Virus record (IMG/VR): IMGVR_UViG_3300009419_000066
Coordinates: 1 to 29,470 of that record
Strand: one strand, 5' to 3'
DNA: 29,470 bases
DNA from: a virus
In this document: positions 4,433 through 28,000 of the stretch, one piece after another
Layout: every line of letters starts with the position of its first letter
Numbering within the stretch: position 1 is the stretch's first letter
Notes under the pieces: generated by a model
Databases searched by the model: none
Seen by the model: only the letters and a program-made list of their open reading frames with translations
What the model was told of the DNA's origin: nothing
Translations under genes and position numbers: made by a program

Positions 4433-5275
4433 TTAGTTACGCTTGCGGAAAAATGCAGCCACTTCAAGCATGCCATTGCTTCGCATCATATCCATCATGG
4501 CCTTCTGGTGATCAACAATTGGTGCAACATCAATCAGCATCTCAGTATCAATCAGGCTTCTGGCATACACTCGCTGCTCACGCAAATTCAGATTCACAAA
4601 AAAGCGATGCTCAGAAGCGTCAGGATTTTTTGCAAGCAATGGCACAAGCTGACTGGTAATCAACAAAGACACCTCAGATGCAAGACAAGCATACATCGGC
4701 TCGGCCTTCAGTTTTGGTGCTGGCTGTGCTGTCAGTTCCATATCGGTCAGCAGCTTCTTTGCATCATCAAAATGCACTTGTAGCAACTGGCTATATTTTG
4801 CAATGTTGAAATGTCGGTTATGACGCGACCACATAGACGCATAGATTTTACGGTTGCCCTGTGCGCGACGATCTACGATTTTGTGTAGCTCGGCCTGCTG
4901 CTCTGGTGTGATTGCTGCACGGTGGTTAATCGCTTGGCCTTTTGTCCAGTAGTCCCACAATACATCATCACATTCATTTTGATATTTGATGATGGTGTCA
5001 CGCAACTCTGGACGTACTTTGTTGGCACTGATAGTCATCAACCAGCCAAACAGCTTGCGCACGGGAAGGCAGATCATTGATTGAATGCCACCGTTTGAAG
5101 GTATGGTGATTTCCACCATACCCTGAGCAAAGCGTTGTTTAATCTTTACAAATTGCGATTTCCAATCCAAACCCATACCTTCAACAATGGGTTTCATGGG
5201 TGTGTATGGCTGACCATTGCACTCGACAATGTACAATTCTGCGCCGTGGAAAGGAACGGTGATAGCTGAAGTCAT
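4433..5275 (-). CDS. ant: Phage antirepressor with P22_AR_N domain
   Basis: A 280-residue protein starting MTSAITVPFHGAELYIVECN and continuing with a PMKPIVEGMGLDWKSQ segment. Together with VRKLFGWLMTISANKVRPEL and the QNECDDVLWDYW segment (residues about 1-115), this is the P22_AR_N domain of antirepressors. The C-terminal half (about 125-280) is a different, helical domain that I do not recognise. Antirepressors of this kind bind and inactivate the phage CI repressor, promoting induction. The start is supported by AGGAG 9 nt upstream. The gene has a long structured leader and its own promoter and lies inside the tail module, so it is probably controlled separately from its neighbours. The target is inferred to be the CI at 23.7 kb. 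Confidence 0.85.
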   Translation of the reverse strand: MTSAITVPFHGAELYIVECNGQPYTPMKPIVEGMGLDWKSQFVKIKQRFAQGMVEITIPSNGGIQSMICLPVRKLFGWLMTISANKVRPELRDTIIKYQNECDDVLWDYWTKGQAINHRAAITPEQQAELHKIVDRRAQGNRKIYASMWSRHNRHFNIAKYSQLLQVHFDDAKKLLTDMELTAQPAPKLKAEPMYACLASEVSLLITSQLVPLLAKNPDASEHRFFVNLNLREQRVYARSLIDTEMLIDVAPIVDHQKAMMDMMRSNGMLEVAAFFRKRN

Positions 5276-17862: not shown

Positions 17863-18474
17863 TTAAAGGATTTTGTCTGATTTTATGTTGTTGCAAGACC
17901 GGCATAAGCACTGCGTGTTTTCAATCGTGTGTGTGCCGCCCTTCGACAATGGGACAACATGATCAAGCTCTGGTGAGTTTGCCAGACCCAGACCCCTAGC
18001 ATCTTTAGGCGTGCTAACCCCACAAATCCTGCAAAGCCAACCATCTCTTTCGAAAATAAAAAAAGGATCAAAGTCTTCTGTCTTGGTTGATCGCACTAAA
18101 GCCCTTCGCTTGGACTTACTCGACCTGTTCCAAGCCTTGTAAGACTCAGTATCCTTTGTTCTTTTTCGAGAATCTTTTTTGGATTCCTCAGCACATGACG
18201 GGCAATAGCATCTATATTTTAAATAGACAACCTTATTACAAGACTTGCACGTCCTTACCTTGTTCCAAGCGGCCTTGATTCTTTTCAAAGCCAACACCTC
18301 AGCTTTGACAATATCCAAAGCCAATACCTGATTGAGCTTGCTCTTGCTGATTGATGACCTGTGCTCAAATGCGCAGCCGCGAGAACAAAACAGTCCTGCA
18401 TCCTTTGACGACCTGACCTTTCTCTCGACAGTTTTTTTGCAGCAAAGACACTCAATAGATTTAATTGCTGGCAT
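17863..18474 (-). CDS. HNH endonuclease with zinc fingers (possibly a homing endonuclease)
   Basis: The start at 18474 (MPAIKSIECLCCKKTVERKV) is preferred because it overlaps the previous gene by only 14 nt; longer starts lie inside that gene. The product has 203 residues. Two Cys-rich zinc-binding segments come first: CLCC...CSRGC near residues 9-38, and CKSC...CPSC near residues 75-95. They are followed by a C-terminal HNH domain (CRICG, ELDHVVPLSKGG, NTQCLCRSCNN). It is rich in Lys and A+T compared with its neighbours and lies between the HNH typical of this position and terS. This suggests a later insertion such as a free-standing homing endonuclease. A packaging role is also possible. 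Confidence 0.8.
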   Translation of the reverse strand: MPAIKSIECLCCKKTVERKVRSSKDAGLFCSRGCAFEHRSSISKSKLNQVLALDIVKAEVLALKRIKAAWNKVRTCKSCNKVVYLKYRCYCPSCAEESKKDSRKRTKDTESYKAWNRSSKSKRRALVRSTKTEDFDPFFIFERDGWLCRICGVSTPKDARGLGLANSPELDHVVPLSKGGTHTIENTQCLCRSCNNIKSDKIL

Positions 18475-18820
18475 GACTATCTCTGGCCGTTTTTGCTTTG
18501 TGACAATCAGAACACAAAGACTGTAGGTTTTCGTGCTCATCCGTGCCGCCTTGTGCTTTGGGCAAGATATGATCCACCTCGGTTGCTGTCACGAACCGGC
18601 CAGTGCCACGGCATGAAACACAAACATAATCATCGCGCTTGAGTATCAGCTTGCGCAGCTTTTGCCACTGCCAACCATACCCGCGCGATGTGGTGCTGCC
18701 CGACCGATCAGGACGTTTTGACCATCCCGTGCGCTCGCTGGCGTGTGTGTCACAGTAGCCGCGTTGATCAGGGCTGGTGACTAGGTTTGCACAACCAAAA
18801 TGACGGCAGGGCCTAGCCAT
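18461..18820 (-). CDS. HNH endonuclease, terminase-associated
   Basis: A 119-residue protein starting MARPCRHFGCANLVTSPDQR at the ATG that overlaps the preceding stop (TGATG). It has CYCDTH-type N-terminal metal ligands, then LILKRDDYVCVSCRGTGR, TEVDHILPKAQGGTD and NLQSLCSDCH. This is the complete HNH motif set of the phage HNH nuclease next to terminase genes, such as HK97 gp74. Such enzymes assist the terminase in DNA cleavage at cos and in head maturation. Confidence 0.9.
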   Translation of the reverse strand: MARPCRHFGCANLVTSPDQRGYCDTHASERTGWSKRPDRSGSTTSRGYGWQWQKLRKLILKRDDYVCVSCRGTGRFVTATEVDHILPKAQGGTDEHENLQSLCSDCHKAKTARDSHASN

Positions 18821-19032
18821 CAATCATCCAAGTAACGTGGCTTGACTGCCATGTCATCGTCTTCAAGGTCTTCACCATCGAGAAACGCTTGCACCAGACG
18901 CTCATTGGTCTTGGTCAGTTGCTGGTTGGTCGCAATCAGATCCTGATTGGCCTTGATCAGATGATTGAGTAGCTTGGCCTGCGCCGCCATCTGCTTGCGC
19001 AGGTTGGCTAGTTCTTTGGTTTGATCTGTCAT
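18820..19032 (-). CDS. Small coiled-coil protein
   Basis: A 70-residue protein starting MTDQTKELANLRKQMAAQAK. Heptad-like hydrophobic spacing runs through residues 5-50 with many Gln, Asn and Lys, followed by an acidic patch EDLEDDDM. It is probably an alpha-helical oligomer with unknown function. It overlaps the HNH gene and lies after the Acb2-like gene in the late operon. I do not recognise a family. Confidence 0.65.
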   Translation of the reverse strand: MTDQTKELANLRKQMAAQAKLLNHLIKANQDLIATNQQLTKTNERLVQAFLDGEDLEDDDMAVKPRYLDD

Positions 19033-19693: not shown

Positions 19694-20307
19694 ACATGCA
19701 CCACCACTTGATCATAACGATAAAAGTATTGCAGCAAGTGCTGATCCAACACAACCCGCCAATCTTCCAGCACAACGCTTGCCTGCAATTCAAACCGCTC
19801 GCAGCTATCCACATAAGACTGCCGCGCAATAGTCAAACCAGACAACCGCCACCGCTCGGCCTGCGTGTAACGTGCATCACCACAGCCACCGCATGAAGAA
19901 CACATGTGGCCACGACCAGTCAGCGGGTCTTTGGTAATGCCCGATCCGTCACACCGCTTGCACTTGCCCTTGTTGAATAGGTACTGATGCACAGCTGCAC
20001 GAGCAACACCCTTCGCCACTGCTTTGACTTTAGCATCATCAAAGCGCGTGCCAGCCTCAGCAATACTAAGCCGCACATGGTTGGTCAGCATCAAGTGCAG
20101 CAGACCAAAATGCCGGTCAGTCGGCTCACTTGACCGGATCAACGCCCACAACAAAGCGCAGATATGTGGCGGCATACCGGCCATCATCTCAGCAGCACGA
20201 TTGCCGCCTGTTGACATGACCGTGGTCTTGATGCCGCCGTCTTTGTTTCCGTCCATCACTTCTTGAGCCAAGTCGATCAGCTCATGAGTATCATCATAAA
20301 ACGACAT
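19690..20307 (-). CDS. Q: Late antiterminator Q (Q82-type)
   Basis: Start at 20307 (MSFYDDTHELIDLAQEVMDG) with GAGGG upstream; the frame is open further up but overlaps rusA. The 205-residue product has a central zinc-binding module CKRCDGSGITKDPLTGRGH then CSSCGGCG (residues about 118-142), followed by RWRLSGLTIARQSY. Size and this DnaJ-like Cys set match antitermination protein Q of phage 82 type (Antiterm family). Q binds DNA at the late promoter and lets RNA polymerase pass terminators. It ends the early operon and lies directly upstream of the late promoter, as in lambdoid phages. Confidence 0.85.
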   Translation of the reverse strand: MSFYDDTHELIDLAQEVMDGNKDGGIKTTVMSTGGNRAAEMMAGMPPHICALLWALIRSSEPTDRHFGLLHLMLTNHVRLSIAEAGTRFDDAKVKAVAKGVARAAVHQYLFNKGKCKRCDGSGITKDPLTGRGHMCSSCGGCGDARYTQAERWRLSGLTIARQSYVDSCERFELQASVVLEDWRVVLDQHLLQYFYRYDQVVVHV

Positions 20308-20308
20308 A

Positions 20309-20614
20309 TCAAACCCTCGCCAACAATTCAGCAGCACCCATCGGCATATCACGATGCAAGCGCACCGCCATTTCGATGCGTCCCTTTTTTAGCACCTTAC
20401 CCATCATCACGACATTTAACTTGACCTGACTGTCATCAACCCAAAACCTTGCCTTGGTCAAGGCATCAAACAAAGCTTTGCAGTAGTTGTCACAGTCGTG
20501 GATATGATTGTTGGGTGGATGCAATATCAATGCAACATCAACCAGCGCTTTGCCACACTTGCCGCGCAACTCTTGACGCGCGATTAACTCGACTACTTTT
20601 TGCCGGAACACCAA
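20309..20614 (-). CDS. rusA: RusA Holliday-junction resolvase core (5' part out of frame)
   Basis: The frame from GTG 20614 encodes 101 residues with the RusA core: HDCDNYCKALFDALTKARFW, DDSQVKLNVV and KGRIEMAVRL. These contain the acidic active-site residues and the C-terminal basic strand. However, the N-terminal strand that RusA needs is present upstream in the same frame (DLPFAPSVNEYWERAKNGH, about 20692-20638), without ATG, GTG or TTG start before it; the frame is open back to about 20870. So the true gene most likely began at 20888 and was shifted by the 22-bp duplication at 20768-20819. Either this is a broken gene, or it uses an unusual start or a frameshift. Confidence 0.7.
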   Translation of the reverse strand: MVFRQKVVELIARQELRGKCGKALVDVALILHPPNNHIHDCDNYCKALFDALTKARFWVDDSQVKLNVVMMGKVLKKGRIEMAVRLHRDMPMGAAELLARV

Positions 20615-20726
20615 GCCACGCTTGCCGATGTAGACGTGTCCGTTCTTTGCCCGCTCCCAATACTCATTGACGCTGGGTGCAAATGGCAGATCAATGATAA
20701 TAGTTTCACCATCTTCAATTGGCTGC

Positions 20727-20888
20727 TCAGTATCGACCAGCAGCCGTGGTGGTATTGCTGGCCGTGCGCTTGGCCTGCTGGTGCGCTTGGCTTGGCCTGC
20801 TGGTGCGCTTGGCTTGGCCAGTCTGAAAGCCGCTATACATCGGGCTTTCCCGAAACTCCTCAGCAGTCATGCGAATGGTCTGATTCAT
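20727..20888 (-). pseudogene. 5' fragment of split rusA (53-codon ORF)
   Basis: The frame starts MNQTIRMTAEEFRESPMYSG at ATG 20888, overlapping the Lar-like gene by ATGA. It runs through the tandem repeat and ends in a low-complexity tail at 20727. Removing one 22-bp repeat unit shifts the reading by exactly one base and joins this ORF in frame to the RusA core. The joined product would have about 185 residues, ...KRTSRPSARPAIPPRLL... bridging both parts. The MTAEEFRE-type start is common in phage nucleases. As it stands the ORF could also be a small free protein. Confidence 0.6.
20768..20819. repeat. Tandem repeat, 22-bp unit, 2.4 copies, inside rusA
   Basis: Two perfect copies lie at 20772-20793 and 20794-20815 (plus strand GGCCTGCTGGTGCGCTTGGC followed by TT). 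The 22-bp period extends from 20768 to 20819. A unit of 22 bp is not divisible by three, so each gain or loss changes the frame. Confidence 0.9.
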
Positions 20889-21097
20889 ACACCCTCCGCC
20901 GTAACACCTTGCTGACGATTCCAACGACTTGCTACCACCTGCACCCCTGTGCCAGACACGATGCCGCGCGCACAGTGACGCGATGTGCAATCTGCATTGC
21001 CGCAATGCACCAAGTAACCAACGCCACATGGTGCAAGGTATGCGACCGCTTGGCTGCCGCATGCCGAACATGGCTGCAAAACTGGTGTGTGACTCAT
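20885..21097 (-). CDS. Lar-like restriction alleviation protein
   Basis: Start at 21097 (MSHTPVLQPCSACGSQAVAY) by ATGA overlap with the helicase-loader gene; the product has 70 residues. It has CSACG near the N-terminus, YLVHCGNADCTSRHC in the middle and VASRWNRQ at the C-terminus. The CxxCG...C...WNRR-type layout is that of the Lar/restriction alleviation family, small zinc proteins in phages that modulate host type I restriction in Rac. The function here is inferred from the fold alone. Confidence 0.75.
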   Translation of the reverse strand: MSHTPVLQPCSACGSQAVAYLAPCGVGYLVHCGNADCTSRHCARGIVSGTGVQVVASRWNRQQGVTAEGV

Positions 21098-26784: not shown

Positions 26785-27933
26785 ATGTCACCGCGCAAAC
26801 GCAACAGCGACAACAGCGACCTGCCACCACATGTGCAAGTCAACACCGTGAATGGCACGAAATACTATCGCTATGTCATGCCGGATGGTGTGCGTTACGC
26901 GCTGGGCAAAGACAAGCGTGACGCGATTGCAGCAGCCCTATCGCTCAATGCCGAGCTGCAGCGCAACCCTGATATTCTGAGCCGCATATTAAAGCGTCAA
27001 GAGTCGCTTGCAGCCAAAAAGAACCCAATCCCCCACATCGAATTTGCAATCGAGAAATTCAAGGAGCGCATCGAGCAAAAGAAATACGCCAAAACCACGC
27101 TGACCAACATCAACCAGATGCTGCGCAACTACCTCGACCGCTGGGCTGGCATGCGTGTGAACGAGATCGAACACCTGCACATCACCGCATTGCTGAATGA
27201 GCTTTCGCCCCACGCATACGTCAAACACAAAAACCTGCTGACTGACCTGTGGGCATACATGATCCACCAAGGTTGGTGCCTTGAAAACTGGCCTGACAAG
27301 ACTATGCCAGCGATCCTACCCGACAAGCAGCGCACCCGACACACACTTGAAGCCGTCATGCAGATCCGCGCCATCGCACCAGATTACATTCAACGCGCGA
27401 TTGATCTGGCCTTGCACTCACTACAGCGCCGCGCCGACCTTGCCAAGCTGCAAAGATCGAGCGTCAACGTGGTTAAAAACACCATGACCGTGCTACAGCA
27501 AAAGACCCTGAAATATGCCAACCCGGTATACATCGAGATCGACATGCACCCAGAGCTTTCCGCAGCGGTTACCGCCTGCCTGAGCACCAGTCTAGCGTTC
27601 CAGTGTCCTTACCTGCTGCACTACCGACCCAAGCGAATGAATGACCAGATCGAGTCAGGCAAGCTGCATAAATTCGCCATGACCGAAGGGCTTTTGACTA
27701 AAGAGTTTGCAAAGTACCGCGACCAGTCCGGTGTGTATGACCACCTAGCGATTGGCCAGCGCCCCAGCTTTCACGACTTGCGCGCGCTGGGTATCGTCAT
27801 CATCACCGAGAAATACGGCAAAGAATACGCGATGGCATTGGCTGGGCATGCTGACGAAAGAATGTGGAAACACTATCTGAAAGGACATGAAGGCTACACC
27901 GAGTTAAAACCAGTGCAGATCAGTTATCGGTAA
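26785..27933 (+). CDS. int: Tyrosine recombinase integrase
   Basis: A 382-residue protein. The N-terminal part (about 15-60, VNTVNGTKYYRYVMPDGVRY) is the arm-binding domain; a SAM-like core-binding domain covers about 75-175. The catalytic domain shows an Arg in HSLQRRADLAKLQRSS, HDLRALG (HxxR) near residue 332, GHADERM (His), and KHYLKGH with the Tyr nucleophile near 365. It should integrate the phage at tRNA-Val, as the attP fragment lies about 120 bp downstream. It is expressed from the operator-3 promoter operon. Confidence 0.95.
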   Translation: MSPRKRNSDNSDLPPHVQVNTVNGTKYYRYVMPDGVRYALGKDKRDAIAAALSLNAELQRNPDILSRILKRQESLAAKKNPIPHIEFAIEKFKERIEQKKYAKTTLTNINQMLRNYLDRWAGMRVNEIEHLHITALLNELSPHAYVKHKNLLTDLWAYMIHQGWCLENWPDKTMPAILPDKQRTRHTLEAVMQIRAIAPDYIQRAIDLALHSLQRRADLAKLQRSSVNVVKNTMTVLQQKTLKYANPVYIEIDMHPELSAAVTACLSTSLAFQCPYLLHYRPKRMNDQIESGKLHKFAMTEGLLTKEFAKYRDQSGVYDHLAIGQRPSFHDLRALGIVIITEKYGKEYAMALAGHADERMWKHYLKGHEGYTELKPVQISYR

Positions 27934-27974: not shown

Positions 27975-27996
27975 AAAATACACCCAAAATACACCC
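27975..27996 (+). repeat. Tandem 11-bp repeats, integrase arm sites
   Basis: AAAATACACCC occurs twice in tandem, followed by AAAAC. Spacing of one helical turn and position between int and the core are typical of arm-type integrase binding sites. Confidence 0.65.
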
Positions 27997-28000
27997 AAAA

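Follow-up and report, generated by a model that had tools for sequence, protein, structure and literature searches.

Introduction

The closest described counterparts of the gene analysed here are the RusA Holliday-junction resolvases of E. coli (structure 1q8r) and of lambdoid phages such as SfII and mEp460. They share with it a full-length domain, the catalytic aspartates (D70, D72, and D91 in E. coli RusA), and an early-region operon position. Compared with these proteins, the present gene belongs to an N-terminally extended subgroup, and its start codon and its domain are found in different reading frames. In Moraxellaceae genomes, RusA domains are commonly preceded by N-terminal extensions.

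Tandem direct repeats in E. coli readily undergo deletion through template switching independently of RecA, as reported for repeats of 101 bp (PMC8378479). In fungi, small tandem duplications that arise between microhomologies and revert at a later time have been described (PMC13207564). The locus has in common with small duplications between short direct repeats an exact duplication of 22 bp, an 8-bp repeat at the ends of the unit, and the resulting frameshift. There is nothing unusual about it beside the known slippage and microhomology duplications, although neither formation nor reversion was observed here. With phase-variable genes that carry coding tandem repeats it shares a unit that is not divisible by three and can toggle the frame, but it differs from them in that the repeat comprises only about two copies, is not conserved, and showed no variation.

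In the present study we describe a rusA gene in an IMG/VR virus record of 29,470 bases, analysed at its full length and referred to below as the window. The gene was probably split by a single recent duplication of 22 bp in the linker that precedes the RusA domain, leaving a null or strongly lowered resolvase.

Source of the sequence and search for near relatives

The large terminase encoded in the window shares 65% identity with its counterparts in Acinetobacter phage AbIPP1 and Psychrobacter phage Psymv2, which makes a Moraxellaceae host likely; the virus is probably a prophage of Moraxellaceae. Searches of viral contigs, phages, and plasmids, from which records very near the window may be excluded, returned no near-identical record. 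Megablast gave no matches when the first 25 kb were compared with phages and the early region with plasmids, and the gene downstream of rusA and the DnaC-like gene had no relatives among the viral contigs. A scan of genome contigs identified only three distant Acinetobacter loci, and larger samples, with 369 genomes from the class and 391 from the order, yielded nothing nearer than one viral contig (L008, see below).

Two other parts of the window drew attention during inspection by eye. Two overlapping ORFs beside the small terminase gene (17863-18823) show HNH-like motifs, and one of the two is a possible homing-type insertion. At 4433-5275, among the genes of the tail module, is a protein resembling a phage antirepressor (P22_AR_N-like).

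Gene structure of the rusA locus

The features of the locus are listed in Table 1. The domain scored 46.2 bits against the Pfam profile PF05866, for which the curated cut-off is 22.8 and which has 124 positions, and it matched the E. coli RusA structure 1q8r (E 7e-16). Three aspartates, D90, D92, and D111, are invariant in the alignment of relatives and align with 1q8r, and the frame that encodes the domain contains no internal stop.

Table 1. Features of the split rusA locus, in window coordinates.
Feature	Position	Strand	Details
RusA-domain open frame, stop-to-stop	20309..20866	-	185 codons; no ATG, GTG, or TTG before 20614
RusA catalytic domain	20363..20686	-	PF05866 positions 1-123; D90, D92, D111 conserved (numbering of the translated query 20309-20764)
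Pre-domain segment 'RPAIPPRLLVDTEQPIEDG...'	20690..20766	-	Related to PxxPxxLVxG, a motif found in extended RusA proteins of Moraxellaceae
Candidate residual start	20695..20701	-	AUU/AUC codons in the RusA frame; moderate SD-like AAGATGGT upstream
rusA 5' part	20727..20888	-	ATG 20888, GGAGGG Shine-Dalgarno, 53 codons, shifted-frame TGA 20727-20729
Perfect 22-bp tandem repeat	20768..20819	-	2.36 copies, GGCCAAGCCAAGCGCACCAGCA twice followed by GGCCAAGC; within the linker that precedes the RusA domain
Small Lar-like zinc-finger gene	20885..21097	-	Its TGA overlaps ATG 20888 (ATGA)

The proper start of the gene is in a different frame. Among the correctly placed starts tested, the starts of the Lar-like and DnaC-like genes not being counted, ATG 20888 had the strongest anti-Shine-Dalgarno energy (-8.9). 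Its reading frame runs for 53 codons on the minus strand to TGA 20727, and the RusA domain is found in the +1 frame relative to it. The original prediction had coupled this start to an upstream Lar gene. The ATGA overlap was confirmed, but the identification of the neighbour as Lar is weak, at 19.2 bits against a curated cut-off of 28.6.

Upstream of the domain the RusA frame was indeed startless, as had been proposed, but the codon at 20614 given as GTG is a TTG, with GTG following at 20611. One continuous RusA protein that includes the LPxxPSxNxYW strand is therefore not predicted from the standard start codons, since the domain frame offers no ATG, GTG, or TTG before this point. A protein initiated at TTG 20614 would lose ∼30 residues of the domain, among them the LPxxPSxNxYW motif, which aligns with E. 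coli RusA, and keep the catalytic aspartates. A gene caller would probably report a truncated RusA of 101 aa from this codon together with a small hypothetical protein. In the third frame, an ORF at 20593-20718 opens with a cluster of TTG, ATG, and GTG codons just past TGA 20727 and could catch reinitiating ribosomes.

The ATG frame and the RusA frame overlap for 140 nt, and the overlap spans the tandem repeat. Tandem Repeats Finder (TRF) gave a period of 22, 2.4 copies, 100% identity, and a score of 104, the highest in the window. The exact self-match at an offset of 22 is 30 bp long; when the full window was simulated 30 times under a first-order Markov model, no self-match of at least 20 bp was seen. 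Both the predicted perfect repeat and the meeting of the two frames at it were therefore borne out, by TRF and by the ORF frames. Translation of the sequence with one unit fewer joined the frames into a single protein of 185 aa, in agreement with the expected ∼185 codons. Such a one-unit sequence would still hold the 8-mer GGCCAAGC twice, 22 bp apart, the kind of direct repeat on which slippage or template switching would typically generate a duplication like this one. An exact search for the repeat junction in the viral contigs, where the record of the window and those very near it may be excluded, gave no match.

Comparison with RusA in relatives

The nearest RusA was that of viral contig L008, with 47% identity; no relative above 50% was found. 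It is encoded in a single frame of 200 aa with a long extension, and there too the ATG shares bases with the stop codon of a small preceding ORF. In Acinetobacter and other Moraxellaceae, most RusA proteins carry an N-terminal extension of 50-70 aa in one frame, and others begin directly at the domain. All individually checked relatives from Moraxellaceae and viruses have their own in-frame start upstream of the domain. This comparison covers matches with a fetched locus; the more distant L136, L139, and L145 were not recovered by tblastn. Among the relatives checked there was neither a split nor a comparable linker repeat, the only self-match being one of 11 bp with a period of 10 in L096. 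The possibility of a conserved split or a programmed frameshift gene was rejected on the unsplit state of these relatives.

The extended proteins of Acinetobacter and other Moraxellaceae (L088-L138) and of L008 resemble the window gene in the length of the extension and, in one subgroup, in the PxxPxxLVxG pre-domain segment; unlike the window gene, they are unsplit and have no such tandem repeat. Within L088-L138 the extensions are of two types, one basic-helical (MRWSEQQL...) and one with PxxPxxLVxG. The distance from the initiating Met to PPSVN was 56-68 codons in 24 of the 25 extended RusA proteins tabulated, L008 not being matched by the motif search. In the one-unit version of the window gene, PPSVN would be 63 codons from ATG 20888, as counted from the translation.

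A profile built from 12 relatives, with the window left out, gave 72.7 bits for the startless frame and 66.2 for the domain alone. When the extension was shuffled (n=200), the score never exceeded 70.3 bits, so that the real order outscored all 200 versions. The 53-aa peptide of the ATG frame alone was not significant against the relatives' profile (-1.0 bits), and its assignment to RusA rests for this reason on position, spacing, start site, and the joined frame.

Origin and consequences of the split

Judged by these comparisons, the ancestral gene was unsplit and the split is a derived condition, because the relatives recovered are unsplit, have their own start, and lack a comparable repeat. 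The same evidence supports the view that the locus was recently inactivated, one of two options in the original prediction. We infer a one-unit ancestor of the window gene from relatives of at most 50% identity. This ancestor would have belonged to a temperate phage of the Moraxellaceae type and encoded a RusA Holliday-junction resolvase with an N-terminal extension, made up of a short N-terminal segment, a flexible basic linker, and the RusA domain. Slippage or template switching between two 8-bp direct repeats, GGCCAAGC, located 22 bp apart, may have produced the duplication in the linker. Through the resulting frameshift, ribosomes that initiate at the proper start would terminate after 53 codons and make no full-length RusA. 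The gene would then have lost all or most of its function, and there might be some polarity on the gene at 20307. The complete identity of the copies and the absence of stops in the RusA frame fit a young event.

It is unlikely, but conceivable, that the split gene still makes RusA at a low level, either from the near-cognate AUU codons at 20701 and 20695 or by +1 frameshifting within the 140-nt overlap, giving a short protein that lacks the extension, as in many phages. The RusA domain is uninterrupted, short RusA proteins starting at the same point exist, and the SD-like AAGATGGT precedes AUU 20701; if the gene is still weakly translated, the AUU/AUC codons at 20695..20701 are the most plausible residual start. 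However, AUU start codons are rare and weak, which counts against such translation, and the Shine-Dalgarno energy at AUU 20701 is -3.8 compared to -8.9 at ATG 20888. Moreover, TTG 20718, ATG 20712, and GTG 20709 in the third frame would compete for reinitiation, and inspection alone showed no classical +1 slippery site at TAC TGA.

Somewhat less likely again is an assembly error. In that case the real number of units, four for instance, would preserve the reading frame and leave the gene intact, and the 2.36 copies of the contig would reflect collapse of the array during assembly. The sequence comes from an IMG/VR contig, and by our reasoning a small-k de Bruijn assembler could collapse a longer array of period 22. 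By the same reasoning, an assembler with k above 8 would not be expected to output two copies for a genome that has one, so a real duplication would be needed in any case, and a linker with four copies would be longer than that of every relative tabulated.

Very improbable is the other option of the original prediction, a reversible slippage switch, kept by selection, with which a population of the phage would turn its Holliday-junction resolvase on and off. A tandem repeat within the coding region whose unit of 22 is not a multiple of three is compatible with it, a change of one unit being enough to toggle the frame, and tandem repeats are deletion-prone (PMC8378479). We found no positive support for it: there are two full copies only, in a single known occurrence; the linkers of relatives hold no comparable repeat at the same site; no near-identical viral record with another copy number was found; and we see no known reason for phase variation of a resolvase. 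Loss of one unit would leave only an 8-bp direct repeat, so change would be expected to run strongly one way. A switch in a recombination nuclease would, if true, be unusual.

A recent disabling duplication remains the preferred explanation, and loss of one unit could in principle restore the gene. Since template-switch deletion is well known in E. coli, revertants would be expected to arise now and then even if the repeat had no selected function; such reversion should be rare, is to be expected wherever a repeat of this kind occurs, and does not in itself make the locus a switch. For annotation, the locus calls for caution, as the two reported products would most likely be pieces of a single resolvase gene that a small duplication has disrupted.

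A second short repeat was noted elsewhere in the window: a perfect 11-bp tandem repeat (AAAATACACCC, 2.4 copies) is located at 27975-28000, just downstream of an integrase-like gene (26785-27933).
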